DNA from: Sulfurimonas sp.
GTDB taxonomy: Bacteria > Campylobacterota > Campylobacteria > Campylobacterales > Sulfurimonadaceae
Assembly (NCBI GenBank): GCA_013791885.1
Contig: VMSZ01000015.1
Location: 1-35,113 of the forward strand
DNA length: 35,113 bases
Direction of reading: 5' to 3'
A program made the translations under genes and the position numbers. How positions within the stretch are numbered: the first letter of the stretch is position 1; each line of letters starts with the position of its first letter. The notes under the pieces were generated by a model. The model was not told where the DNA came from and did not search any database. It was given only the letters and a program-made list of their open reading frames with translations. Shown here piece by piece: positions 1 to 15,270 of this stretch.

Positions 1-881
1 TCACAAACGCAGTTTCAAAATTTCATGGTGAAGTTGCAAACAGAATGTGGAAAGATTGTGTGGGACGCTCAGAAATCACCTACATCACAAATGCGCAAAA
101 CAGACGTTTTTGGATGGATAAGGGGATGCGATCTGCTTTAGATGAACATGAAGATTACGCTTTGACTGCACGTAAAAAACATCTTAAACGTCTTTTGTTT
201 GATGAAGTGGCAGACCAGACCGGAAAAATGTTTGACCCTGATGTTCTCACTCTTGTATGGGCACGCCGTTTTGCAGAGTACAAACGTCCGGGACTCGTCA
301 AAAAAGATTTTGCGCGTTTTAAAAAGATGCTTGAAAATGAAGAACGTCCGGTTCAAATCATTTGGGCAGGCAAACCTTACCCGTTTGACACAAACGCAGT
401 CAACACTTTTAATGAACTCATTCATATCAGTCACAATATTAAAAATATGGCTGTACTCATAGGCTATGAACTCGAACTCTCCCGTACTTTAAAATACGGA
501 AGCGATGTTTGGCTCAACACTCCAAGAGTATCACGTGAAGCAAGTGGGACAAGCGGTATGAGCGCGAGTATGAACGGTTCTATTCATCTCTCAACAAATG
601 ACGGCTGGCACCCTGAGTTTGCAAAAGACACCTGCAACTCTTTTACAATTCCAGATATTGACCATACTCTTCCTATTGAAAAGCAGGATGAAGAAGATAA
701 CAAAAACATGATGAATATTCTTGAAAATCAAATCATACCTATGTATTATGATAAACCGGAGAATTGGACACAGATGATGAAAAGTGCTATGAACAATGTA
801 CTTCCTGCGTTTGATTCGGGACGTATGGCGCATGAGTATTATGTAAAAATGTACGACTTAGGAAGAGATAATGACAAGTAA
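1..881 (+). CDS. glgP: Alpha-glucan (glycogen) phosphorylase, C-terminal part, cut by window edge
   Basis: The frame is open from base 3, so the gene starts outside the window and about 290 C-terminal residues are visible. The first visible residues (AVSKFHGEVANRMW) and then WARRFAEYKRPG, DVWLNTPRVSREASGTSGM and NDGW match the nucleotide-sugar half of the short-form GT35 alpha-glucan phosphorylases, which release glucose-1-phosphate from glycogen or maltodextrin in the cytoplasm. Oddity: GT35 enzymes carry a PLP-binding lysine in GTSGMK; here the sequence reads GTSGMSAS, with AGC (Ser) at that place. Either the enzyme works differently, or it is a glucan-binding or inactive relative. The stop overlaps the start of pgk by 11 bases, so the two are translationally coupled. 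Family call is firm; catalytic activity is uncertain. Confidence 0.8.
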   Translation, partial: TNAVSKFHGEVANRMWKDCVGRSEITYITNAQNRRFWMDKGMRSALDEHEDYALTARKKHLKRLLFDEVADQTGKMFDPDVLTLVWARRFAEYKRPGLVKKDFARFKKMLENEERPVQIIWAGKPYPFDTNAVNTFNELIHISHNIKNMAVLIGYELELSRTLKYGSDVWLNTPRVSREASGTSGMSASMNGSIHLSTNDGWHPEFAKDTCNSFTIPDIDHTLPIEKQDEEDNKNMMNILENQIIPMYYDKPENWTQMMKSAMNNVLPAFDSGRMAHEYYVKMYDLGRDNDK

Positions 882-2091: not shown

Positions 2092-5000
2092 ATGAACACC
2101 GAGACCGTACTTACTTCGCTTGAGAAACACTTTCAAGCCATAGATAAAATTATTCTCTCGCGTCAGGACGCCATCACAGGTCTACTTCCGGCAAGTACTG
2201 CCGTCAATGCTCACGGTGACTACACCGATGCCTGGGTACGAGATAATGTTTACAGCATTATGAGCGTTTGGGGACTTGGTTTATCTTATAAAAAATTCTA
2301 TCCTGAGCATCATAGAACATATCTGCTCTCTCAAAGTGTAGTCAAGCTTATGCGCGGTCTCTTAAACGCAATGATGCGCCAATCTGACCGTATTGAAGCC
2401 TACAAAAAAACAAATAATCCTACCGATGCACTTCATGCAAAATATGGAACATCAACGGGTTTGGCTGTTGTCGGCGATGATGAATGGGGACACCTGCAGC
2501 TCGATGCAACTTCCATTTTTATTTTAATGATTGCACAAATGACCGCTTCCGGATTACGACTTATCTACACCATGGACGAAGTCAACTTTGTACAGAATCT
2601 TGTACACTACATCAGCCGTACTTACTGTACTCCGGATTACGGGATTTGGGAACGAGGCAATAAGATAAATCACGGCACGACCGAGATAAACTGCAGTTCT
2701 GTTGGTATGGCAAAAGCGGCGCTCGAAGCTATCAACGGTTTCAACCTTTTTGGAAATGTCATTAGCAATGAAGCCGTCATACATGTCGTTGCGAATGATA
2801 TAGCACGCTCGCGTTTTACCCTGCACTCTCTTTTACCACGAGAATCCAATTCCAAAGAGACGGATGCTGCACTGCTGAGTATCATCGGCTATCCTGCCTA
2901 CGCTGTGGAAGATGAGACAATTCTCAAATGTACACGCGACAAAATAATCAAAAAACTTGCCGGGAACTACGGCTGTAAGCGTTTTTTACTCGATGGCCAT
3001 CAAAGCAGTATTGAAGATGAGAACAGACTGCATTATGAACCTTCTGAACTGCGTGAATTTGAGCACATAGAGTCTGAGTGGCCGCTCTTTTTTACCTACC
3101 TGCTTCTTGATGCGCTGATGCGTGAAGATAAAGAGGAAATTCAAAAATATAAAGAAAAACTAGAACCGCTTTTTGTAGAAGAAAATGGCATTAGACTCTT
3201 GCCTGAACTCTACATTGTTCCCAAAGAACTTATTGAAGCAGAAAAAGAAAACCCCGGTTCTCAAAAGCGCATAGCAAATGAAAACCTGCCTTTGGTTTGG
3301 GCACAAAGTCTTTATATGCTCTGTGACATGATTATGGAAGGCGTTTTAGATACTAGCGATATTGACCCGCTTCACAGACGTAAGCGCATAGGACACAAAC
3401 GCAGCACCTACCCTATGGTGGCAGTTTTAGCTGAAAACAAAACAGTGCAGGAAAAGCTTCTCTCTCTTGGTATTAACTCTCAAACGCTTGAAGATGTCAA
3501 GCCCATAAGAGTATCGCATGCTTGCGAACTCTCAGAGATACACACCTATCTTGGTAAAAATGAAAAACTTTCTCTCACCGGCAGACCGTTACTTGTCACA
3601 AGGACGATTACTACAGCACGCATGCACTTGCTTCAGGGACAAAAAACAGTTTTTCTTCCATACTATTTTAACCCGCAAGGTTTTTATTTTTCTTATGACA
3701 ATATTTTACTGGCAGAACATTTTCGTGCCTCTTTAACTTTTCTTACAAAACATTGGGACCAACCGGGACAACCGATTGTTCCTTTTCTTGTACGCGAAGG
3801 TATGCTCAGTCACAAAACCCAGGAATTTGTTTTAGAGCTTCTTCGTGATTTACAAAATGGTCAAAGCGATGGTGTAAAAGTCCTAACAGCTCCGCTTGAA
3901 CAACTTCTCTCGACCGCAGACATGGAAAGAATAGATAATTTATATGGCTACACACTTAAAGATATACAGCTTGATGCACTAAAGCAGAGAAGCTGCATTG
4001 CATCGGAAAGCGCAAATAACACTAGACCTTTAAGTCCGCAAGAGCTTTATGATATTGAAAATGAGAAAGAAGTTTTTTTAACAGATCTTCTCTTTTCAAG
4101 CGAGAACCGTTGTCAAAAAGCACATGCACTCAGTCTGTTATACAAACGTCACGGTGGCGATTATAAAATCTTTTGGCAAGAAGAAGAGTTTACTCTTGCT
4201 TTTATTGCAAAACAGCACTACGAAATGGCATCACAATGCCATGACTGGGCTGTTGCAAGACGTTTGGCAGATATAAGCGGTAAATTTGATGACCGATTGG
4301 AAGATGTTTTACTTGATATTATTATCTCCCAAAAACGCCTGGCTGTTGGACGTGCCTACAGTGAAAAGGCAACATTTTCCAAACCACACGATAGCCACTT
4401 GATAGTAAATACTATTAAAGAATTTTGTGGCAATAATGTTGCTGAAGGTGTTTTAACGCAGGAGATAATCCTGCATCTTGGTCATCTTATCCGTATTGAA
4501 CCAGAGCTTTTCAGCAATATTATAACTCTTCGTACATGGTACTTTGTTCAGCTGCTTGTTGGTCAAATTAGTAGAGAAAGAGAATTATCCATCGGCGATG
4601 CCTATGAAATTTTACTTGGTTTTGCACCGCATGATATCTATAATCGTTTGCGAGCTATTCTACAATCTTTCACCAAAGAGGTCAAAGAGTTACGACAACT
4701 GGAACATTTAAGTGGTTCAGGCATAGAAAATTTTGAGCAGATACAAGCCCAGCATAAAGAAACAAAAGATTTTCAAACAGATGATTGGGCACTTTGGAGA
4801 GAACATTCTGGGATGATAAGCGGACTCCCCCGAACTTTTTACAAAGGCATCTGGCATCTTCTGCATCAATGTAAAGGTTTAGTCATTGGAGATAAATATA
4901 ATATCCAAAGCCGTATAGGCTCTGAAACTACGTATGAGTCTACTGCGGGTGAACGAAATTTTGAGCTGCGTATTGATTCACTCTTGCAAAGTATTGATGC

Positions 5001-5271
5001 ACCTGATTACCGTCAATTAAATATAGAGCTCATTGAAGCTCTTGCAAAAATATTCAGACAGACGCCTGAGCTGAAAATTGATAACGACATTATTCTTGAT
5101 GTTTTGATTGGCTATGCCGTAAGAATTGCTTGGAATAGCCATAATGAAAGTGCTAACTATGATGAACAAAAAGCTCAGGCTTGGGAGAATTTTTACAAAC
5201 TTTCCCCGCAAGAGACAGAGAAAAATTTTGTAGATGCATTTGTTTATTTATTAACATCTCAAGAATCCTAA
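2092..5271 (+). CDS. Phosphorylase kinase alpha/beta-like protein (GH15-type domain)
   Basis: A 1059-residue protein resembling the regulatory alpha/beta subunits of eukaryotic phosphorylase b kinase over most of its length. The N-terminal GH15 (glucoamylase-like) (alpha/alpha)6 domain shows SRQDAITGLLPAST (23-36), HGDYTDAWVRDNVYSI (41-56), YGIWERGNK (183-191) and SSVGMAKAALEAI (202-214); the Glu of GIWE sits where GH15 has its general acid. SEWPLFFTYLLLDAL lies further on. The C-terminal part (roughly 900-1010) has LPRTFYKGIWHLLHQCKGL and PDYRQLNIELIEAL, like the eukaryotic C-terminal region. No protein kinase domain is visible. It starts 15 bases after pgk in the phosphorylase operon, so it could bind or trim glucan, or regulate the phosphorylase. 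Function is inferred; homology is clear. Confidence 0.82.
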   Translation: MNTETVLTSLEKHFQAIDKIILSRQDAITGLLPASTAVNAHGDYTDAWVRDNVYSIMSVWGLGLSYKKFYPEHHRTYLLSQSVVKLMRGLLNAMMRQSDRIEAYKKTNNPTDALHAKYGTSTGLAVVGDDEWGHLQLDATSIFILMIAQMTASGLRLIYTMDEVNFVQNLVHYISRTYCTPDYGIWERGNKINHGTTEINCSSVGMAKAALEAINGFNLFGNVISNEAVIHVVANDIARSRFTLHSLLPRESNSKETDAALLSIIGYPAYAVEDETILKCTRDKIIKKLAGNYGCKRFLLDGHQSSIEDENRLHYEPSELREFEHIESEWPLFFTYLLLDALMREDKEEIQKYKEKLEPLFVEENGIRLLPELYIVPKELIEAEKENPGSQKRIANENLPLVWAQSLYMLCDMIMEGVLDTSDIDPLHRRKRIGHKRSTYPMVAVLAENKTVQEKLLSLGINSQTLEDVKPIRVSHACELSEIHTYLGKNEKLSLTGRPLLVTRTITTARMHLLQGQKTVFLPYYFNPQGFYFSYDNILLAEHFRASLTFLTKHWDQPGQPIVPFLVREGMLSHKTQEFVLELLRDLQNGQSDGVKVLTAPLEQLLSTADMERIDNLYGYTLKDIQLDALKQRSCIASESANNTRPLSPQELYDIENEKEVFLTDLLFSSENRCQKAHALSLLYKRHGGDYKIFWQEEEFTLAFIAKQHYEMASQCHDWAVARRLADISGKFDDRLEDVLLDIIISQKRLAVGRAYSEKATFSKPHDSHLIVNTIKEFCGNNVAEGVLTQEIILHLGHLIRIEPELFSNIITLRTWYFVQLLVGQISRERELSIGDAYEILLGFAPHDIYNRLRAILQSFTKEVKELRQLEHLSGSGIENFEQIQAQHKETKDFQTDDWALWREHSGMISGLPRTFYKGIWHLLHQCKGLVIGDKYNIQSRIGSETTYESTAGERNFELRIDSLLQSIDAPDYRQLNIELIEALAKIFRQTPELKIDNDIILDVLIGYAVRIAWNSHNESANYDEQKAQAWENFYKLSPQETEKNFVDAFVYLLTSQES

Positions 5272-5396
5272 TTGATGTTACACTCTCAAGCGAACAAGTC
5301 CTCTTGAGAGGCAGGGACAAATGTCCCTTGCAACCCCCTAAAGCTACCCGCATCTGCCGGATACGGGAGAAAACAGATCTTAAAAAAAGGTGAAAC
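5272..5396. repeat. Structured intergenic region with three consecutive hairpins
   Basis: Between the kinase-like gene and glk. Seen: CTCTCAAG (5283-5290) pairs with CTTGAGAG (5303-5310); AGGGACA (5313-5319) pairs with TGTCCCT (5322-5328); CCCG (5347-5350) pairs with CGGG (5364-5367), extended by ATC/GAT with one mismatch. There is no long T tract after any stem. Possible roles are attenuation, mRNA stabilisation before glk, or a remnant of a mobile palindromic element. The glk ribosome-binding site AAGGTG follows. Confidence 0.5.
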
Positions 5397-6380
5397 ATGA
5401 TACTTGCAGGCGATATAGGCGGAACTAAAACGAATTTGGCGTTGTATGAAGTCATAAATGGCACTTTAGTTATTAAAACGCAGCAGCAATTTTCAAGTCA
5501 GGAGTTTGCAACATTCGGTGAGATTATTTCCAAATTTTTAGAACTCACTTCTCCTGAGGCCATAAACGCAGCCTGTTTTGGGATTGCAGGACCCATTATA
5601 GACGGGCATTGCCGTACGACAAATCTGCCGTGGAATATCAGTACAGCTGAGTTGCAAAAGCTCTTAAAAACTCCAAATGTGCGTTTGCTCAATGACCTTG
5701 AAGCCACGGCTTACGGGATGTTGTACCTGCCAAAAGAAGAGTTTGTTGAACTCAATCCAAACGCAGTCTTTAAAGATGCAAACCGGGCTGTAATTGCTGC
5801 TGGAACAGGTCTTGGCGAGGGAATGCTTTTTTATGATGGACAAAACTATCATCCAAGCGGTTCCGAGGGCGGTCACTGTGACTTTGCACCGCTAAACGCA
5901 GAGCAGGACAAACTTCTTGTGTGGCTCAGAGAGCGCTACCCTGCTCATGTGAGTTATGAGCGTATTCTCTCAGGTCCGGGAATTTATACCTTGTATGAAT
6001 TTTTAAAAGAGAGCGGTTTTGCTCCCGAGCCTTTGGCTATGCTAAATATTCCTGAGGGGAAAGACAAAAGTGCGCTTGTAAGTAAATGTGCTTTGGAGCT
6101 AAAAGACCCGCTTTGCTCTAAAACTCTAGAACTTTTTGCCGAAATTTATGGAGCAGAAGCAAGCAACCTTGCACTCAAGAGTCTCTCTTTGGGCGGTGTT
6201 TATATGGGTGGCGGGATAGCTCCGAAAATTTTACCAATTCTTACAAATGAGCACTTTATGCGAGGCTTTTTAGCTAAAGGACGTTTTGAAGAACTTCTGG
6301 GCACAATGCCCGTTAAAATATCTTTAAACGCAGAGACAGCCCTTTTGGGTGCGGCACATTTTGCACAAGATAAACTTTAA
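5397..6380 (+). CDS. glk: Glucokinase
   Basis: A 327-residue cytoplasmic enzyme of the bacterial Glk family (E. coli type) that phosphorylates glucose with ATP to glucose-6-phosphate. Motifs: GDIGGTKTNLAL (5-16, phosphate-binding loop), GIAGPIIDG (62-70), NDLEATAYG (99-107, catalytic Asp100), GTGLGEG (136-142), SEGGHCDFAP (156-165, sugar binding), SGPGIYTLYEFL and MGGGIAPKI. The start has AAGGTG upstream. It lies before pgm and on the same strand. In H. pylori, glk also sits beside zwf-pgl-edd-eda, as it nearly does here. Length and motifs are complete, with nothing missing. Confidence 0.95.
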   Translation: MILAGDIGGTKTNLALYEVINGTLVIKTQQQFSSQEFATFGEIISKFLELTSPEAINAACFGIAGPIIDGHCRTTNLPWNISTAELQKLLKTPNVRLLNDLEATAYGMLYLPKEEFVELNPNAVFKDANRAVIAAGTGLGEGMLFYDGQNYHPSGSEGGHCDFAPLNAEQDKLLVWLRERYPAHVSYERILSGPGIYTLYEFLKESGFAPEPLAMLNIPEGKDKSALVSKCALELKDPLCSKTLELFAEIYGAEASNLALKSLSLGGVYMGGGIAPKILPILTNEHFMRGFLAKGRFEELLGTMPVKISLNAETALLGAAHFAQDKL

Positions 6381-6418: not shown

Positions 6419-8044
6419 ATGGCACACGAAAACGCAGGAAAAATAGTAAAAAAAGAAGATTTGATAGACGTTGATGCTCTTTTAAAGGCATATTATAACG
6501 ATAAACCGGATGTACAAATTGTTGAACAAAAGGTTGCGTTTGGAACATCGGGACACCGTGGAACTTCTTTGAAAAAAAGTTTTAACGAAACGCATATTTT
6601 AGCCATTGCACAAGCTCTTTGTGACTACAGAAAAGCGCATGGTATTAAAGGAGAACTTTTAATTGCAAAAGATACGCATGCTCTCTCAACTCCGGCACAA
6701 GAAACAGCGCTGAGAGTCTTTGTAGCCAATGGAGTAAAATGTGTTATTGCCAAAGACGGAGGCTATACGCCAACGCCTGTTTTATCTTTTAGTGTCATTG
6801 AAGCCAACAAAACGAGTAAAGAACTTTGTGACGGTGTGGTTATCACGCCTTCACACAATCCTCCCCAAGACGGCGGTTTCAAATACAACCCATCCAATGG
6901 CGGTCCGGCAGATACAGACATCACTTCCGTCATTGAAGCAGAGGCAAATAAATACATTCAAAATGAGCTTGAAGGCGTAAAAACAGTAAGTTTAGAAGAA
7001 GCCTTGGCAAAAACTCTCGAGATGGATTTCATCACGCCTTACGTTAAAGCGCTTGACACAATCATCGACATGAAACTCCTCCAACAAAGCAAACTCAAAG
7101 TAGGCGTTGATCCACTTGGCGGCTCAGGTATTGCGGTCTACAAAAAAATCAATGAGATTTATGGCCTGAATCTAGAGATAGTCAATGACAAAGTTGACCC
7201 TACTTTTAGTTTTATGTCTTGTGACCATGACGGAAAAGTTCGTATGGACTGCTCGTCGCCGTATGCTATGGCTTCACTCGTAAGCCTCAAAGACAAGTTC
7301 GACCTTGCGTTTGCAAACGACCCTGACTTTGACCGTCACGGTATCGTCACACCAACAGGACTTATGAATCCAAACCATTATCTCTCCGTGGCCATCTGGT
7401 ACCTTTTTCAAAACCGTGAAGGCTGGAGCAAGGACCTCAAAATTGGAAAAACTTTAGTTTCGAGTTCTATGATTGACCGTGTGGCTGAGTCCATCGGCAA
7501 GCCTTTGGTCGAAGTACCTGTGGGCTTTAAATGGTTTGTGGACGGGCTTTGTGATGGAACTGTCGGTTTTGGCGGTGAAGAGAGTGCGGGTGCTTCGTTT
7601 TTACGTAAAGACGGAAGCGTCTGGTCGAGTGACAAAGATGGAATTATTTTAAATCTTTTAGCTTTTGAGATTACAGAAAAACTCAAAAAAGACCCTTCTG
7701 TGATTTACAGAGAACTTGAAAAACAATTTGGTGTCTCTTACTACGAGCGTGCCGATGCCGTAGCAAACGCAGAGCAAAAAGCAAAACTCAAAAAACTTTC
7801 ACCAAATGACATCACTTCAAAAACTCTTGCAGGCGAAGAGATTACGGGCATCTACACAAACGCAAGCGGAAACAACGCTCCAATCGGCGGACTAAAAGTT
7901 ACAACAAAAAACGGCTGGTTTGCCGCACGTCCATCAGGAACGGAAGATATTTACAAAATATATGCTGAGAGTTTTATCTCAAAAGAGCATTTAGCTCTTT
8001 TACAAGAAGAAGCGAAGGCCTTAGTTTTAAGCGTAATTGCTTAA
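6419..8044 (+). CDS. pgm: Phosphoglucomutase (alpha-D-glucose phosphate-specific)
   Basis: A 541-residue cytoplasmic enzyme, close to the 546 residues of E. coli Pgm. It interconverts glucose-1-phosphate and glucose-6-phosphate and so joins the phosphorylase product to the Entner-Doudoroff enzymes. Motifs: FGTSGHRGTS (41-50), active-site serine in TPSHNPPQDGG (Ser146 phosphorylated during catalysis), metal loop DPDFDRHG near residue 301, sugar loop GGEESAGASF near 384, and phosphate-binding ARPSGTEDIYKIY near 503. The start is fixed by AGGAGA eight bases upstream. It is the last plus-strand gene of this block; a hairpin made of two inverted AAACGCAG copies begins inside its stop codon. Confidence 0.96.
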   Translation: MAHENAGKIVKKEDLIDVDALLKAYYNDKPDVQIVEQKVAFGTSGHRGTSLKKSFNETHILAIAQALCDYRKAHGIKGELLIAKDTHALSTPAQETALRVFVANGVKCVIAKDGGYTPTPVLSFSVIEANKTSKELCDGVVITPSHNPPQDGGFKYNPSNGGPADTDITSVIEAEANKYIQNELEGVKTVSLEEALAKTLEMDFITPYVKALDTIIDMKLLQQSKLKVGVDPLGGSGIAVYKKINEIYGLNLEIVNDKVDPTFSFMSCDHDGKVRMDCSSPYAMASLVSLKDKFDLAFANDPDFDRHGIVTPTGLMNPNHYLSVAIWYLFQNREGWSKDLKIGKTLVSSSMIDRVAESIGKPLVEVPVGFKWFVDGLCDGTVGFGGEESAGASFLRKDGSVWSSDKDGIILNLLAFEITEKLKKDPSVIYRELEKQFGVSYYERADAVANAEQKAKLKKLSPNDITSKTLAGEEITGIYTNASGNNAPIGGLKVTTKNGWFAARPSGTEDIYKIYAESFISKEHLALLQEEAKALVLSVIA

Positions 8045-8152: not shown

Positions 8153-8190
8153 CTTGGAACTTTTATTTCAATCTCTCTAAAAGTTCCAAG
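8153..8190. terminator. 13-bp perfect inverted repeat at the end of the RhuM-like gene
   Basis: CTTGGAACTTTTA (8153-8165) pairs with TAAAAGTTCCAAG (8178-8190) around 12 bases. The stem includes the stop codon and last codons of the minus-strand gene. It is a probable terminator or mRNA-stabilising hairpin for that gene. A recombination site at the edge of the insert is the alternative. Confidence 0.5.
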
Positions 8191-9035
8191 GCACTCATCT
8201 CAAATTTAGAAAAAGCGAACCACTTTTTACCTAAATCTTTAATACTCGCCCCTATGTGGTATATCTCTGTGTTATCAATTATCATAAATCTATCGTGGGC
8301 ATTTTTGAATTCTTTTAGTTCTATGTTTTTATATTGTGATTTATATTTTTGATAATCAAGTTTGAGTTGCTTTGTGATGGTGTGGGAGTAGATTATTATT
8401 TTAAGATTTGGATATTTGCTAAAGAGTGTAAAAACACCCTCATCTATGTAGTTATCTATGAGAACAATTTCATTTTTTGCACTTTTGAGTAAATTATTTA
8501 CAAAAACATAAGCATCGTAAATCTCTCCATCGAAGAATATCCCTTTAGATGGTTTCATTGAATTATCTTTAATGAGGCTCGAAATATTTTCTACTTTTAA
8601 TTTTAAAAATGCTACGACATTTTCAAGCTCTTTAAATCTTTCATGTGTGATTTTTTCAGAGTTTATCACATAGCCGTCAGAAATATAGCCCTTAAGTACA
8701 GATGTCGCCCATTGTCTAAATCTCACACCCTTTTGAGATTTAACCCTATAACCGACGGAGATAATGACATCTAAGTTGTAATACTCAACATCTCTTCTAA
8801 CTTCTCTTCCACCTTCATTTTGAACTGTCGCAAATTTTGCGACAGTTGAATTTTTCTCCAACTCACCGTCACTAAACACATTGCTAACATGCTTCCCGAT
8901 GGTTTTAACATCTCGTCCAAATAGTTCAGAGATTTGATTTCTATTGAGCCAAACTGTTTCATCGTTTATAGATACATTCAGCTCCAACTCACCGTCATTG
9001 TAAAGAACTACATCAGATTTGTTTTGCTCATTCAT
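8163..9035 (-). CDS. RhuM-family protein with C-terminal PLD-like domain
   Basis: A 290-residue protein. Residues 1 to about 115 match the RhuM family named after a Salmonella pathogenicity-island gene: WLNRNQISELFGRDVKTIGKH, VQNEGGREVRRDVEYYNLDVIISVGYRVKS and RFRQWATSVLKGY. A helical linker follows. From about 165 there is a phospholipase-D-like domain with a single variant motif HxRx4D (His247, Arg249, Asp254) and then GASIKD, so it could be a nuclease acting as a dimer. The ribosome-binding site is AGGAAAC. It is a single gene lying between an 18-base direct repeat, without AAACGCAG motifs, next to other accessory DNA. A defence or toxin role is possible but not shown by the sequence. Confidence 0.8.
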   Translation of the reverse strand: MNEQNKSDVVLYNDGELELNVSINDETVWLNRNQISELFGRDVKTIGKHVSNVFSDGELEKNSTVAKFATVQNEGGREVRRDVEYYNLDVIISVGYRVKSQKGVRFRQWATSVLKGYISDGYVINSEKITHERFKELENVVAFLKLKVENISSLIKDNSMKPSKGIFFDGEIYDAYVFVNNLLKSAKNEIVLIDNYIDEGVFTLFSKYPNLKIIIYSHTITKQLKLDYQKYKSQYKNIELKEFKNAHDRFMIIDNTEIYHIGASIKDLGKKWFAFSKFEMSALELLERLK

Positions 9036-9318: not shown

Positions 9319-10284
9319 TTAATTTTTGAGAGTGTCTTTTACACTATAAATGATCTTCAACCTATCGTCTCCTGCATTAACTTTATAATCAGGTACAAAA
9401 ATCTCTAACCCATAGTTCATTAGGTTTGCCCTAGTTGTTTTTTCTTTTGATGAAACTTGTGCATCAATCATCTCTACATAGGGAACAAGTTGTTTGGCAT
9501 AAGAAGAAATATTTGTAATTGTAAAATTTTCTTCGATAATCTTGTCTAATAGTCGTTCCTCCATTCCTCTGTCTTCTTTATATTTTGGAAAATAAAATTT
9601 CAATAATGCTTGAAGAGTATCAATATTTAGTTCAGTACCTACAAATTCTCCAGCTTTCTTTGATTCTTGAATTGTAAGTTTTTGATAATTATCTGCTTGA
9701 TGTTTTACTTCTTGAAATTGTATGTCAGCATCTTCTAGTTTTGCACTTATTAAATAAAGTTTTCTTTTTAACTTTTTATCCAATTCTTGATTAGCTTTAT
9801 ATCCTAGTTGATGTTCTATCGCAGCCCATGTATGCATTAATGAAGTTCGTATCTGTATTTCAATTTTTATATCTTCAAGACCTTTATAATTAGGAGTAAC
9901 ACACCATGAGCTATCAATTTTAATAATTAAATGATTTGAACGATATCCAAATTCATTTAATTCTAGTTTATCAGATTTGTTTTCAGTTTCTTGTATGCTA
10001 AAATTATCTTCTATTATTTTTTGAACTTTTTCAATATCATCTAGATAATATAAAATAATTCTAATACCGCAAAAATCTTCATTATCTGCGAATGGATTTT
10101 CGTAGTCTTTCCTAGTTATTTTGTTATAAAATGAATCAAAATCTTTTATTCTACTTGACACGGTTAAAAAAGGTATATCATTATCATTAAGGAATTCATT
10201 TATAGCCCCCTTAATATTTCGTTCTGCTCGTTCATAATTAGGCAATTTATTTTTATATTCTTGATAAATACTTTCTTTGTTCAT
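9319..10284 (-). CDS. RelA/SpoT-domain small alarmone synthetase (possible toxin)
   Basis: A 321-residue protein with a synthetase domain but no HD hydrolase, TGS or ACT domain, so it is not a housekeeping Rel. Conserved elements are present: SRIKDFDSFYNKI (Arg45, Lys47), DFCGIRI (Asp70, metal), FGYRSNH (Tyr114), EIQIRTSLMHTWAAIEH (Glu142, Arg146, His151). These predict an active pyrophosphate transferase making (p)ppGpp-type products or modifying another acceptor. About 110-130 C-terminal residues, helical and unassigned, exceed the usual small synthetase and may regulate it in cis. The gene has weak codon similarity to its neighbours, no partner antitoxin, and is framed by attC-like and REP-like palindromes, so it is probably mobile. 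Toxin function is only one option. Confidence 0.8.
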   Translation of the reverse strand: MNKESIYQEYKNKLPNYERAERNIKGAINEFLNDNDIPFLTVSSRIKDFDSFYNKITRKDYENPFADNEDFCGIRIILYYLDDIEKVQKIIEDNFSIQETENKSDKLELNEFGYRSNHLIIKIDSSWCVTPNYKGLEDIKIEIQIRTSLMHTWAAIEHQLGYKANQELDKKLKRKLYLISAKLEDADIQFQEVKHQADNYQKLTIQESKKAGEFVGTELNIDTLQALLKFYFPKYKEDRGMEERLLDKIIEENFTITNISSYAKQLVPYVEMIDAQVSSKEKTTRANLMNYGLEIFVPDYKVNAGDDRLKIIYSVKDTLKN

Positions 10285-10667: not shown

Positions 10668-11291
10668 TTAGGATTTTAGAGCCGCAAGTGCCTCTTTAGT
10701 TATTGTGGTAATCTCTTTAAAATTGCCCTCTTTTATGAGGTCATTTGGGACAATCCAGCTTCCGCCTATGCATAAAACATTTTCAAGGGCCAAGTACTCT
10801 CTTGCGTTTGCTGCGTTTATGCCGCCTGTTGGGCAAAAAACGACATCTTTAAAAGGTGCGCCGAACGCTTTAAGTGCGCCTATGCCACCGACTATATTTG
10901 CAGGGAAAAGTTTAAACGCATCATAACCGTACGCCAAACCCTGCATAATCTCACTCGCTGTTGCTACACCCGGCAAAAGTGGAATGGAGTTTTTATAGCT
11001 TGCTAATTCCTGCGTTAAACCCGGGCTTATGGCAAAAGTCGCTCCTGCGTTTTCTACCATCTTAAACTGCTCTGCGTTTAAGACCGTTCCTGCACCCGTC
11101 ACTGCGTTTGGAAACTCACGTGCCACTGCGTTTATGGCGTCAATTGCGCAAGCGGTTCTGAGGGTGATTTCAAAAATATTGACGCCTCCAAGAACTAAGG
11201 CTTCACACAAACGCAGTGACTCTTCTACGCTGTCAACACTAATGACAGGAATTATTTTTGAGACAAGCATGACCTCTCTGGCACTTAACAT
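10668..11291 (-). CDS. eda: KDPG aldolase
   Basis: A 207-residue 2-keto-3-deoxy-6-phosphogluconate aldolase (E. coli about 213) that splits KDPG into pyruvate and glyceraldehyde-3-phosphate, the last Entner-Doudoroff step. Motifs: IFEITLRT (Glu41 acid/base, Arg45), GAGTVLN (66-72), Schiff-base Lys127 in DAFKLFPAN, and CPTGGI. The ATG at 11291 lies just before the edd stop codon (11285-11287), with GGAGAAGAG as ribosome-binding site, so the two are coupled. Oddity: it carries six exact AAACGCAG octamers, four of them within 89 bases, mostly encoding Asn-Ala pairs. It is the last gene of zwf-pgl-edd-eda. Confidence 0.95.
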   Translation of the reverse strand: MLSAREVMLVSKIIPVISVDSVEESLRLCEALVLGGVNIFEITLRTACAIDAINAVAREFPNAVTGAGTVLNAEQFKMVENAGATFAISPGLTQELASYKNSIPLLPGVATASEIMQGLAYGYDAFKLFPANIVGGIGALKAFGAPFKDVVFCPTGGINAANAREYLALENVLCIGGSWIVPNDLIKEGNFKEITTITKEALAALKS

Positions 11292-13126
11292 AACTCTTCT
11301 CCAACAATACTAAATGTACAAGCACCCTCTTCTGCAGAATTTACACTATGGCGCATCATGCTAAAAAGTTCTCGTCCTACTCCGTGCATATTTGCACTCA
11401 AATTCGGTTGTTTTAGCACACGGTTACGAAGAACAATCTCGTCAATATCTACACTTAAAACGCCGCGTTCACAGTCAAGCGTTATCATGTCGCCGTCTTT
11501 AATTTTCCCAATCACACCGCCATCTTTGGCTTCTGGGCAGAGGTGAATGGCGGAAGCAACTTTTCCTGAAGCCCCCGACATTCTGCCGTCTGTAATGATG
11601 GCGACTTTAAAACCTTTGTCTTGCAACGCACCCATAGATGGAAGCAGACCGTGAAGTTCCGGCATACCGTTAGATTTTGGACCCTGATACGGAAGAACCG
11701 CCACAAAATCCATCTCTAATTCACCTCTTTTAAAGGCTTCTTTAAGTGCTTCTTGCGAGTGGAAAACTTTTGCAGGTGCGCTAATAATTCTGTTTTCCTC
11801 TTTAAGTGCTGACGTTTTAATGACACTGCGTCCAATGTTTCCATCAAGAACTCTCAGGCCGCCTTCTTTGTTAAAAGGCTCTGCTACTGTACTTATGACA
11901 GCAGAGTCACTGCTTCTTGAAGATGATGGTTTAAAACGCAGCTCTCCTGCGTCTAAGTAAGGCTCTTGAAGATAATTACTCAAACCTTTTCCCATAATGG
12001 TATTCACATCTTCATGCAAAAGTCCTGCGTTTAAAAGCTCGGCAATTACAACTGCCATGCCTCCGGCGCTGTGAAAGTGATTGACATCCGCACTTCCGTT
12101 TGGATACATTTTACATAACAGCGGTGTCATCTGCGAGAGTGCGTCAAAGTCATCCCATGTAAGCTGAATACCGCATGAACGTGCCATGGCTACAAGATGA
12201 AGCGTATGGTTTGTAGAACCGCCCGTTGCCAAAAGCCCAATCACTGCGTTTACTAAACTTTTTTCATCGATGAGCTTGCCTATTGGCATATAATTCTCAC
12301 CTAAAGGAGAAAACTCTAAAAGTTTGAGCGCTGCGGCTTCTGTCAACGCATCTCTAAGCGGGGTGTTTGTATTTACAAATGAACTCCCAGGAAGATGCAG
12401 TCCCATAATCTCCATCAACATTTGGTTCGAGTTTGCAGTTCCGTAAAATGTACAAGTTCCAGCGGAGTGGTACGAAGCGCTTTCCGCTTTTAAAAGTTCA
12501 TCTTCACCAACTTTTCCCTGTGCGTAATCTTGACGAATGGCGGCCTTTTCAGAGTTGCTGATACCTGATGGCATTGGTCCGGCTGGAGCAAAAACAACAG
12601 GCAAGTGTCCAAAATTCATAGCCCCTATAAACATTCCCGGTACTATTTTGTCGCAAACGCCGAGCATAATTGCTCCATCAAACATATTATGAGAAAGTGC
12701 CACAGCCGTACTCATAGCAATCGTGTCACGAGAAAAAAGACTCAGTTCCATTCCCGGCTGTGACTGCGTTACACCGTCACACATAGCAGGAACACCGCCT
12801 GCAAATTGGGCTGTTGCCCCTTGAAGACTCAAAGCTCGTTTAATCAATGAAGGATAAGTAACAAAAGGTTGATGCGCAGAGAGCATGTCATTATAGGCTG
12901 AGACTATGGCGATATTTTCTTTTTGCATTGACTCAAGCTGCTGTTTTTCATGTGCGGAACACGGTGCCATAGCATGTGCTAAGTTACTGCATCCAAGATG
13001 TGCGCGCTCAACTGTTTTATGGTGTGCTTCATCTATGCGTTTGAGATAAACTGCACGAGATTTTTGTGAGCGCTCTATAATATTTTGCGTCACTTCAACT
13101 AAGGTCGGATGTAATTTAATCTGCAT
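11285..13126 (-). CDS. edd: 6-phosphogluconate dehydratase
   Basis: A 613-residue member of the IlvD/Edd family (E. coli Edd 603). It dehydrates 6-phosphogluconate to KDPG and uses a 4Fe-4S cluster. Likely cluster cysteines are in AMCDGVTQSQPGM (Cys116), MLGVCDKIVPGM (Cys158) and GTCTFYGTANSNQ (Cys225). The C-terminal half shows DGRMSGASGKV and LPSMGALQDKGF. The N-terminal HLGCSNLAHAMAPCSA is typical of Edd rather than of dihydroxy-acid dehydratase, as is the position between pgl and eda. The start overlaps pgl by 11 bases. The oxygen-sensitive cluster fits a microaerobic or anaerobic life style. Confidence 0.95.
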   Translation of the reverse strand: MQIKLHPTLVEVTQNIIERSQKSRAVYLKRIDEAHHKTVERAHLGCSNLAHAMAPCSAHEKQQLESMQKENIAIVSAYNDMLSAHQPFVTYPSLIKRALSLQGATAQFAGGVPAMCDGVTQSQPGMELSLFSRDTIAMSTAVALSHNMFDGAIMLGVCDKIVPGMFIGAMNFGHLPVVFAPAGPMPSGISNSEKAAIRQDYAQGKVGEDELLKAESASYHSAGTCTFYGTANSNQMLMEIMGLHLPGSSFVNTNTPLRDALTEAAALKLLEFSPLGENYMPIGKLIDEKSLVNAVIGLLATGGSTNHTLHLVAMARSCGIQLTWDDFDALSQMTPLLCKMYPNGSADVNHFHSAGGMAVVIAELLNAGLLHEDVNTIMGKGLSNYLQEPYLDAGELRFKPSSSRSSDSAVISTVAEPFNKEGGLRVLDGNIGRSVIKTSALKEENRIISAPAKVFHSQEALKEAFKRGELEMDFVAVLPYQGPKSNGMPELHGLLPSMGALQDKGFKVAIITDGRMSGASGKVASAIHLCPEAKDGGVIGKIKDGDMITLDCERGVLSVDIDEIVLRNRVLKQPNLSANMHGVGRELFSMMRHSVNSAEEGACTFSIVGEELC

Positions 13127-13817
13127 AGTAAACCTCTAAGAGTGGAGTTTTTTGCTGCATCATGGCAACAATCGGCATATTGACAACATCATCTGATTTA
13201 ACAGCTTTTTGAAAAACTTCTTTTTTCGCTTGACCTTCAATATGTAAAATCAAGTTTTTTGAGCTCAGTAAAAAAGAGCGTGAAAGTGTTATGCGCTCTC
13301 TTGGTTCTAAAACAGCAGTTGTAGCACAACATAAATCATTTGTATTTAAAGCAAACGCAAGTTCGCTTGAATGAGGAAAAAACGATGCTGTGTGGGCATC
13401 TTCTCCCATTCCAAGAACGACAACATCAAGCTCGTGTGAGAGACCGTGTAAAGCAACTTCCAAACTTACCACGGCATCTTTCGCTCGGATTGCACTGTTT
13501 TTTAGAGGAATAAATCTCGCTTTTGTAGCGTGATTTTGAAGAAGATAATCTTGTACCATTTTTTGATTGGAGTTGGGGTTGCTTGGATCTACCCAGCGTT
13601 CATCCACTAAAGTAACACGTACTTTTTTCCAGTCAAATTTTATGTTCGAAAGCGCGTTTAAGAGATTTTTAGGAGTTGAGCCGCCTGAGAGAACCAAAGT
13701 CGCATACCCTTTGGTCTCGATGGCAAAAGCCAAATCATCAATTATTTTTTGTGACAAAGCTTCGACGAGTTTTTCTTTTGAGCTAAACTCGTTGAGTGTA
13801 TAGTAATTATTCGCCAT
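13116..13817 (-). CDS. pgl: 6-phosphogluconolactonase
   Basis: A DevB/SOL-type lactonase that hydrolyses 6-phosphogluconolactone made by Zwf. Motifs: LVLSGGSTPKNLL, VTLVDERWVDPSNPNSN and VLGMGEDAHTASFFPHS, all present. I place the start at 13817 (MANNYYTLNEF, 233 residues), because GGGAGAAG lies a few bases before this ATG. The longer 238-residue reading (from 13832) begins inside that ribosome-binding site. With the chosen start the overlap with zwf is 11 bases, like the other junctions of the operon. In H. pylori the same step is encoded next to zwf and edd. Confidence 0.93.
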   Translation of the reverse strand: MANNYYTLNEFSSKEKLVEALSQKIIDDLAFAIETKGYATLVLSGGSTPKNLLNALSNIKFDWKKVRVTLVDERWVDPSNPNSNQKMVQDYLLQNHATKARFIPLKNSAIRAKDAVVSLEVALHGLSHELDVVVLGMGEDAHTASFFPHSSELAFALNTNDLCCATTAVLEPRERITLSRSFLLSSKNLILHIEGQAKKEVFQKAVKSDDVVNMPIVAMMQQKTPLLEVYYAD

Positions 13818-15270
13818 ACCAACTTCTCCCATCTTTTTCTATCATTGCAATAGAAGCAGCCGGGCCGTTTGTTCCGGCAGGATAAGGTTTTGGTTTTATA
13901 TTATTCTCAGCCCAGCCGTCCAAAATAGTATCTGCCCAAATCCATGCAGCTTCTACTTCATCGCGACGCATAAACAGTGTCGGGTTATTTCGTACTACAT
14001 CAAGTAAAAGGTACTCATAGGCATCCGGAACTCTTGGCGCATTTTCCGCTACTTTAAGGTCAAGTTTTACTTTTTGAAGACGCATACCGTCTGTTAAACC
14101 TGGGGTTTTGTTCATAACAAACATAGAAATACTCTCATCCGGCTGCAAACGAATAACAAGCTTATTGCTGTCTATGCACGAGCCTTTGTTTGGAAAAATA
14201 GAGTGAGGAATCTCTTTAAAATCAACTACAATTTCACTGTAACGTTTACTCATGCGTTTGCCTGTTCTGAGGTAGATAGGAACATTATGCCAACGCCAGT
14301 TGTCAATGTCTACGCGAAGAGCCGCAAAAGTTTCCGTGTCACTGTTTGGACTTCCGCCCTCTTCTTCAAAAAAACCAGGAACTGCTTCTTTTTCAATTGC
14401 GCCTGCACTGTATTGACCACGTACGGTTTTTGTTTTTAAATCATCGCCTTCAATTGGACGAAGTGAGCGAATAACTTTAAGTTTTTCATCACGAACACTG
14501 TTTCCATCAAGTGAACAAGGCGGTTCCATTGTGACTAAACACAGAAGCTGCATAAGGTGATTTTGAATCATATCACGCATTGCCCCGTACTCATTGTAAT
14601 AATCCCATCGACCTTCAAGACCAACACTCTCAGCCACGGTTATCTGAATATGGTCAATGTACTGGGCATTCCAAATAGGCATAAAAAGCATATTTGAAAA
14701 ACGCAGTGCCATAATGTTTTGTACCGTGTCTTTTCCAAGATAGTGGTCTATTCTAAATATGGCAGACTCTTCAAAATGTTTGGCAACCTCTTCATTGATG
14801 ACTCTTGAAGATGCCAAATCTCGTCCAATCGGCTTTTCTAAAACCACACGGGAAACCGGAGTAATGAGATCATAGTCATGGAGATTTTTACAGATGGTTC
14901 CAAAGAGTACCGGCGACGTCGAGAGGTAATTGATTCTTTCTCGCTCAGGATACTCTCTCATAAGCTCAGCAAAGCCTTCGTATGAGCCGCTCTCTTTTAA
15001 ATCTGTTTGAACATAATGGAGATACTCTTTAAAAGATTCAAAATACTCTTCGTTATAGCAATCACCCTTGAGATTTAATTGTAATTTTTCTTTTGTGAGT
15101 GCTATGTGTTCTTCTTGTGAGTATCCATCACGAGATACTGAAATGATGCGGCTTTCCTTGGCTATATAACCATTACGACATAAATGATAAAGAGCCGGCA
15201 TAAGTTTTCGCAGTGCTAAATCACCATGTCCGCCGAAGATAATAATGTCACACACTATATTTTGAATCAT
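13807..15270 (-). CDS. zwf: Glucose-6-phosphate 1-dehydrogenase
   Basis: A 487-residue enzyme (E. coli Zwf 491) that oxidises glucose-6-phosphate to 6-phosphogluconolactone with NAD(P)+. Motifs: nucleotide-binding IFGGHGDLALRKLMPALYHL (11-30; the usual GASGDL reads GGHGDL), EKPIGRDL (145-152), and substrate-binding RIDHYLGKDTVQN (173-185; His176, Lys180). The C-terminus carries the usual NGPAAS segment (NGPAASIAMIEKDGRSW). It is the first gene of zwf-pgl-edd-eda; AAAGG precedes the start. The operon promoter must lie in the 77-base gap upstream or in the preceding polysaccharide operon. Confidence 0.96.
   Translation of the reverse strand: MIQNIVCDIIIFGGHGDLALRKLMPALYHLCRNGYIAKESRIISVSRDGYSQEEHIALTKEKLQLNLKGDCYNEEYFESFKEYLHYVQTDLKESGSYEGFAELMREYPERERINYLSTSPVLFGTICKNLHDYDLITPVSRVVLEKPIGRDLASSRVINEEVAKHFEESAIFRIDHYLGKDTVQNIMALRFSNMLFMPIWNAQYIDHIQITVAESVGLEGRWDYYNEYGAMRDMIQNHLMQLLCLVTMEPPCSLDGNSVRDEKLKVIRSLRPIEGDDLKTKTVRGQYSAGAIEKEAVPGFFEEEGGSPNSDTETFAALRVDIDNWRWHNVPIYLRTGKRMSKRYSEIVVDFKEIPHSIFPNKGSCIDSNKLVIRLQPDESISMFVMNKTPGLTDGMRLQKVKLDLKVAENAPRVPDAYEYLLLDVVRNNPTLFMRRDEVEAAWIWADTILDGWAENNIKPKPYPAGTNGPAASIAMIEKDGRSWYGE

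Follow-up and report, generated by a model that had tools for sequence, protein, structure and literature searches.

A bacterial homologue of phosphorylase kinase alpha/beta with a conserved GH15-type active site and a neighbouring glucokinase gene

The locus and the encoded protein

The window analysed here is the whole 35,113-nucleotide stretch of contig VMSZ01000015.1 from the genome of Sulfurimonas sp., a sulfur-oxidising bacterium (assembly GCA_013791885.1). Its plus strand carries the gene order glgP-pgk-PHKL-glk-pgm, in which PHKL is the label we use for the phosphorylase kinase (PhK) alpha/beta-like protein encoded at 2092-5271, and a block of Entner-Doudoroff genes lies on the minus strand.

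3-881, plus strand: C-terminal half of an alpha-glucan phosphorylase (glgP) of the TIGR02094 short type, cut by the contig start
871-2076, plus strand: phosphoglycerate kinase (pgk), from profile matches
2092-5271, plus strand: PHKL, 1059 aa, ATG start, from profile, sequence and model matches
2092-3381, plus strand: D1 of PHKL (residues 1-430), a GH15 (alpha/alpha)6 domain with the highest conservation in the protein
4573-5265, plus strand: KPBB_C (D4/D5-type) domain of PHKL, residues 828-1058, with a C-terminus lacking CaaX
5397-6380, plus strand: glucokinase (glk; PF02685; TIGR00749 above cut-off), the conserved partner of PHKL
6419-8044, plus strand: phosphoglucomutase (pgm; TIGR01132), from profile matches
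10668-15270, minus strand: the whole Entner-Doudoroff block (zwf, pgl, edd, eda)
10668-11291, minus strand: eda, named by sequence inspection
11285-13126, minus strand: edd, named by sequence inspection
13116-13832, minus strand: pgl, from profile matches
13807-15270, minus strand: zwf, from profile matches

The order phosphorylase, pgk, PHKL, all on the plus strand, agrees with an earlier note on this DNA, which placed the gene two genes after an alpha-glucan phosphorylase; the gene immediately downstream, which that note did not mention, encodes glucokinase. The N-terminal half of the phosphorylase forms the end of another contig of the same genome (C69), and comparison with a relative indicates that only a few codons are missing between the two halves; in the nearest relative the phosphorylase has 546 aa. 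Contig C69 carries, divergently, glgB, two glgA, a galT-like gene and a GH57 gene of the 4-alpha-glucanotransferase type, as well as a second GH57 gene and a nucleotidyltransferase/phosphomutase fusion. In a genome of the same genus (G009), the genes form a same-strand run, glgA-glgA-glgB-gap-pgi-glgP-pgk-PHKL-glk, with PHKL-glk at its end; PHKL in the genus Sulfurimonas sits in a glycogen locus. Between PHKL and glk, the window genome has a 121-bp repeat. A riboswitch at this position was rejected, there being no Rfam match above the gathering score and the sequence being a dispersed repeat. A mobile-element origin of PHKL was likewise rejected, as no phage record matches and the matches in plasmid collections are weak GH15 hits (24% identity) from two chromosome-sized records.

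PHKL is a full-length homologue of PhK alpha/beta, as the earlier note had recognized, and the match is far beyond chance. In Pfam, the protein matches Glyco_hydro_15 (PF00723; 268 bits, residues 14-815, cut-off 22) and KPBB_C (PF19292; 259 bits, residues 828-1058, cut-off 27), the latter being the C-terminal domain of phosphorylase b kinase regulatory subunits. The only relevant matches among PDB sequences are human PhK alpha (672.6 bits, E 7.5e-201, in three stretches over residues 11-985) and PhK beta (561.6 bits over 3-1012), and a 38-sequence profile scores 1067 bits to alpha and 882 to beta, with the match reaching profile position 1057. An AlphaFold2 model (pLDDT 81.7, pTM 0.76) has the colinear D1-D5 fold of PhK alpha and aligns with human chain 8jfk_A at Z 44 over 876 residues with 35% identity; the rmsd is 10 for this whole chain and 3.6 over 761 residues for 8jfl_A.

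The D1 model forms an (alpha/alpha)6 barrel in which two active-site loops, 181-196 (around E187) and 293-311, are modelled at low confidence (pLDDT <50). After PhK, its best structural matches are GH15 enzymes, namely isomaltose glucohydrolase (7c25/5z3a, Z 25.8) and bacterial glucoamylase (Z 22.3). The Kribbella isomaltose glucohydrolase (5Z3A), bacterial glucoamylase (1LF6) and Aspergillus glucoamylase (3EQA) share this fold with PHKL at Z 20-26 and have the same Tyr, Arg-Asp and general acid/base positions, but their identity to PHKL is 12-16% and they lack the D2-D5 region.

Distribution and gene neighbourhoods

A scan of GTDB genomes yielded at least 564 bacterial relatives of PHKL, and the best 80 of these, from Campylobacterota, Gammaproteobacteria (mostly methanotrophs) and Cyanobacteria, were used for a survey of loci. 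The family is already in databases, with GH15/KPBB_C proteins in public bacterial and cyanobacterial genomes such as that of Synechococcus elongatus, and the protein is thus not new in kind; we found no published function for these bacterial proteins in the literature searched. PHKL is sporadic in Campylobacterota (6/298 sampled genomes; 3/41 in the nearest-relative set) and common in the methanotroph order (64/151).

No other gene neighbours PHKL nearly as often as glk, which is present in 38 of the 80 loci. In 26/31 Campylobacterota-group loci and 11/16 gammaproteobacterial loci, glk is the next gene downstream in the same orientation, usually overlapping PHKL or at most 50 nt away; the 31 include one locus (L036) that is titled Thiotrichales and whose PHKL groups with the Campylobacterota sequences. 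Of the five Campylobacterota-group loci that lack glk, three stop no more than 365 nt from PHKL. None of the 33 cyanobacterial PHKL loci shows the linkage; the pairing is specific to Campylobacterota and Gammaproteobacteria among the PHKL members surveyed. A whole-genome search placed glk within the adjoining 1.5 kb in 29/30 further methanotroph loci, although about three of these genomes may repeat loci of the 80-locus set. Entner-Doudoroff genes accompany PHKL-glk in about 6-7 of the 80 loci, in Campylobacterota.

The association extends to gene content and to divergence. In the 298-genome Campylobacterota sample, full-strength glk outside two families (f11 and f14, with the Helicobacter-type gene order zwf-pgl-glk-pgi) occurs only in PHKL genomes, in 5/6 carriers (Fisher p 6e-10 for co-occurrence, not corrected for relatedness). 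The window glk shares 51-54% identity with the two methanotroph glk compared and 31% with Helicobacter-type Glk. PHKL and glk distances correlate at r 0.88 within groups, a value reached in 0/500 permutations (relatedness uncorrected). The pair is thus inherited together. As far as we could find, both this pairing and the difference between intact and decayed active sites described below are unreported.

The survey gives a different picture for phosphorylase, of which the earlier note suggested PHKL to be a partner, naming a lack of conserved linkage as something that would speak against this. Phosphorylase neighbours PHKL in 5 of the 80 loci, all in Campylobacterota, whereas glucokinase is a partner in two phyla; the linkage is not conserved, and on this survey we reject phosphorylase as the conserved partner. 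The two genes do share genomes, with phosphorylase present in 6/6 PHKL carriers against 38/292 non-carriers in the Campylobacterota sample (relatedness uncorrected) and in 17/18 other PHKL genomes tested, which argues that PHKL and phosphorylase act in the same pathway.

The contig carries no protein kinase gene, in line with the earlier observation that no kinase gamma subunit is encoded here. A whole-genome Pkinase search in seven Campylobacterota carriers found at least one Hanks-type kinase in each (7/7) and none adjoining PHKL. The kinases lying 10-15 kb from PHKL in two lineages are, on sequence inspection, phosphatase-kinase-type ORFs, one of them beside nitrite-assimilation genes, and we set aside the idea of a linked kinase gene.

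In an unrooted tree with long branches, human alpha and beta attach nearest to the cyanobacterial sequences with modest support. Over D1-D2, human alpha shares 48-55% identity with bacterial members, with means of 54% for cyanobacterial, 50% for gammaproteobacterial and 48% for Campylobacterota sequences, and 42% with human beta. Human alpha and beta are the only eukaryotic sequences in this tree and both are long branches, and a rooting of the eukaryotic branch was therefore not adopted; the ancestral position suggested in the earlier note does not follow from this tree. Two sequences from gammaproteobacterial MAGs (L043, L048) nest among the Campylobacterota PHKL, a placement that suggests transfer or misbinning.

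The active site and its human counterparts

The catalytic features assigned to D1 are as follows.

2221-2244, plus strand: Y44xxxW48xR50D51 motif, equivalent to Y48xxxW52xR54D55 of Aspergillus glucoamylase
2650-2652, plus strand: E187, predicted general acid, aligned with human alpha E185 (PMC10978961)
3205-3207, plus strand: E372, predicted general base, aligned with human alpha E371 and with Lys in beta (PMC10978961)
3277-3303, plus strand: NENxPLVWA loop adjoining the base, residues 396-404, from the alignment

The catalytic set Y44, W48, R50, D51, W186, E187, E372 and W403 is invariant in 82/82 bacterial members. The spacing Y-xxx-W-x-R-D is exactly that of Aspergillus glucoamylase 3EQA, the query sequence of that enzyme having been confirmed by its full-length match to 3EQA; its Arg54/Asp55, the counterparts of R50/D51, belong to the GH15 catalytic set. 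D1 is about 66% identical between phyla in the bacterial alignment, while D2-D5 are 30-39% identical. A Pro precedes the PHKL base, as in two inverting enzymes named in PMC12446779, although inverting and retaining GH15 mechanisms cannot be told apart from sequence alone (PMC12446779).

The human subunits bear directly on how these residues should be read. The two catalytic Glu of human PhK alpha are E185 and E371, and with maltose, isomaltose or glycogen as substrate the protein had no glucoamylase activity (PMC10978961). Human alpha (8jfk_A) thus keeps both Glu and the Arg-Asp pair without detected activity, so that conserved Glu alone prove nothing. The differences lie elsewhere. First, the position of Y44 is Gln in human alpha and Asp in human beta, and alpha has a deletion of about 6 residues just ahead of it; the loop Tyr (Tyr48 of the Kribbella enzyme) hydrogen-bonds to the base (PMC12446779). 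A Tyr does occur in alpha, offset from Y44 by two residues in the alignment, so that loss of the catalytic Tyr in alpha is likely rather than proven. Second, N396, N398, L401 and A404 in the loop beside the base are invariant in bacteria and altered in both human subunits. Third, human beta (8jfk_B), likewise a full-length homologue of PHKL (562 bits), lacks the equivalents of Tyr44, Arg50 and Glu372. Among the 153 D1 positions that are invariant in bacteria, 19 are changed in alpha and 51 in beta. The decay increases stepwise from the bacterial proteins through alpha to beta, in keeping with an enzyme that went out of use in eukaryotes, and may be the reason for the lack of activity in human PhK.

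Human alpha also differs from PHKL in having about 100 additional residues inserted after D2. Features of the kinase complex that set it apart are a CaaX farnesylation site and the residues K588 and Y593, which contact the kinase (PMC10978961). In the bacterial proteins, the K588 position is mostly Glu, Asp or Gln, the Y593 position is unconstrained, and a C-terminal CaaX motif was found in 0/79.

Possible functions of the bacterial protein

We consider it probable, from the conserved residues and the gene neighbourhoods, that PHKL acts inside the cell as a catalytically active GH15-type glucohydrolase, releasing glucose from glycogen or its dextrins for use by glucokinase. The homology, the architecture, the invariant catalytic residues and the glk linkage are established by the data, whereas the activity, the substrate, the role of D2-D5 and the direction of evolution are what we infer within this model. 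With the complete D1-D5 architecture of PhK alpha/beta, PHKL would cut terminal glucose from glycogen or, alternatively, from the short dextrins left by phosphorylase and 4-alpha-glucanotransferase; the freed glucose would be phosphorylated at once by the glucokinase encoded in the adjacent gene, and the glucose 6-phosphate would enter glycolysis and the Entner-Doudoroff pathway. D2-D5 probably form an oligomer or bind glucan. In eukaryotes, relatives of a PHKL-like protein would have been recruited as scaffolds of a kinase complex, with loss of activity. Counting against the model are the inactivity of human alpha despite its two Glu, the low confidence of two modelled active-site loops, the lack of glk linkage in Cyanobacteria and the 121-bp repeat between PHKL and glk in this genome. 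Of the proposal in the earlier note of a glucan-sensing or glucan-trimming partner of phosphorylase, the partnership falls away, and the prediction of glucan trimming is supported by the GH15 active site, invariant in all 82 members, and by the position of the gene within a glycogen locus in Sulfurimonas.

Work on methanotrophs is consistent with such a role. Published mutants without glucokinase and glucose dehydrogenase build up free glucose as their glycogen declines, and the passages of that paper cited here attribute the glucose to GlgP, GlgX and MalQ without establishing the releasing enzyme. The phenotype fits a glucohydrolase, provided that the mutant strain carries PHKL. The methanotroph ATP-glucokinase, which is of the same type as the glk adjacent to PHKL, has been proposed as a scavenger of free glucose from glycogen, and the passages cited do not mention the PHKL neighbour as a source of that glucose (PMC6406325, PMC8062543).

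It is possible, if rather unlikely, that PHKL is instead a catalytically silent sensor, whose pocket binds glycogen ends or glucose and which scaffolds or allosterically regulates glucokinase, or phosphorylase in some Sulfurimonas. Human alpha sets the precedent, being without detected activity despite its two Glu, and PhK activity rises when acarbose binds (PMC10978961); moreover, 1059 residues, with about 600 beyond the catalytic domain, are unusually large for a glucosidase, and the linkage to glk would fit a regulator as well. However, bacteria have kept the Tyr next to the base and the NEN-PLVWA loop without variation, whereas both differ in human alpha and beta, a pattern expected if only the bacterial proteins are under selection for catalysis, and it is D1, not D2-D5, that is conserved.

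A more speculative proposal, to which we give a low probability, is that PHKL represents a new type of glycogen enzyme, in which the GH15 domain acts on alpha-1,6 stubs or limit dextrins and, together with D2, achieves amylo-1,6-glucosidase-like debranching within one protein, the glucose again passing to glucokinase. PhK D2 has been described as resembling part of a glucanotransferase. Further hints, and they are hints only, are that the nearest solved GH15 enzyme is isomaltose-specific and that the ORFs of the inspected glycogen loci include no debranching gene of the GlgX/isoamylase type. If this were true, PhK alpha/beta would be a former debranching-type enzyme.

It appears improbable that the GH15 substrate of PHKL is not glycogen but a free disaccharide, for example trehalose or isomaltose. 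The GH15 family does include trehalases and isomaltose glucohydrolase (PMC12446779), the sole NCBIfam match of PHKL, far below its cut-off, is an archaeal trehalase, and the nearest solved GH15 enzyme by model is the Kribbella isomaltose glucohydrolase (Z 25.8 versus at most 22.3 for glucoamylases). Fold similarity says little about substrate, however, and in this genus the gene lies among genes for glycogen synthesis and phosphorolysis. OtsA-type trehalose synthase is absent from 11/13 PHKL genomes, including that of the window, in a test that covered OtsA and left TreYZ/TreS outside, which makes trehalose a less likely substrate. Finally, an ancestral kinase-regulating subunit that, like PhK alpha/beta, controls a bacterial Ser/Thr kinase acting on phosphorylase is very improbable. 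In its favour, each of the seven Campylobacterota carriers tested encodes a Hanks-type kinase; against it, none of these kinases adjoins PHKL, those 10-15 kb away in two lineages are of the phosphatase-kinase type, the K588/Y593 contacts and CaaX are not conserved, and the local phosphorylase is of the short type.

Why the two largest subunits of PhK carry glucoamylase folds is a question still listed as unresolved in the 2024 paper on the human structure. Bacterial PHKL is a simple counterpart that works without a kinase partner gene nearby and has its active site intact, and the gene beside it names the likely product, glucose. The conserved residues and the neighbouring glucokinase gene suggest that what is known as a regulator in PhK began as an enzyme that freed glucose from glycogen. 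If PHKL proves active, PhK alpha/beta would be kin to a functioning enzyme of glycogen breakdown, PHKL would be a candidate source of free glucose from glycogen in methanotrophs, and a function would be provided for a family of several hundred bacterial proteins.

The PHKL-glk junction and the genes beyond the operon

Window 5275-5395, dispersed, structured intergenic repeat at the junction of the PhK alpha/beta-like gene (PHKL) and the glucokinase gene (glk)

The repeat has 28 matches across the same genome and is found in 16 of 31 genus genomes, with a core of ~73 nt that carries a GGGACAAATGTCCC hairpin. Its fold z is -3.35, and Rfam gives nothing above the gathering score. In the nearest relatives, the PHKL-glk junction lacks this dispersed repeat.

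Elsewhere in the window, two genes separate the glycogen operon from the Entner-Doudoroff cluster.

Window 8163-9035 (-), RhuM-family gene (PF13310)
Window 9319-10284 (-), RelA/SpoT-domain gene (PF04607)

A divergent glk and other kinase-type genes

L048, a gammaproteobacterial MAG locus, has a divergent glk adjoining PHKL, with 31% identity to the usual partner type; this is perhaps an independent pairing. Further kinase or kinase-like genes were seen at other loci.

L122:725-1567, sugar-kinase-like gene, different from standard glk
L098:3752-5485, L099:5490-7223 and L103:449-2101, kinase ORFs whose N-terminus is phosphatase-like (sequence inspection)

The first adjoins glgA in the same-genus genome G159, which has a phosphorylase and lacks both PHKL and standard glk, and its product could be the alternative glucose kinase of that genome. 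The L098 ORF belongs to another Campylobacterota lineage and adjoins genes that look, by inspection, nirB-like and formate/nitrite-transporter-like.

A fusion gene in glycogen loci

L153:11179-13692, fused nucleotidyltransferase, hexapeptide and phosphomannomutase/phosphoglucomutase domains

Similar ORFs occur at three other loci (L154, L018 and L157), and these fusions adjoin GH57 and glgA in glycogen loci. Since NCBIfam holds no above-cut-off model for the fusion, it may be an unusual enzyme for NDP-glucose supply.
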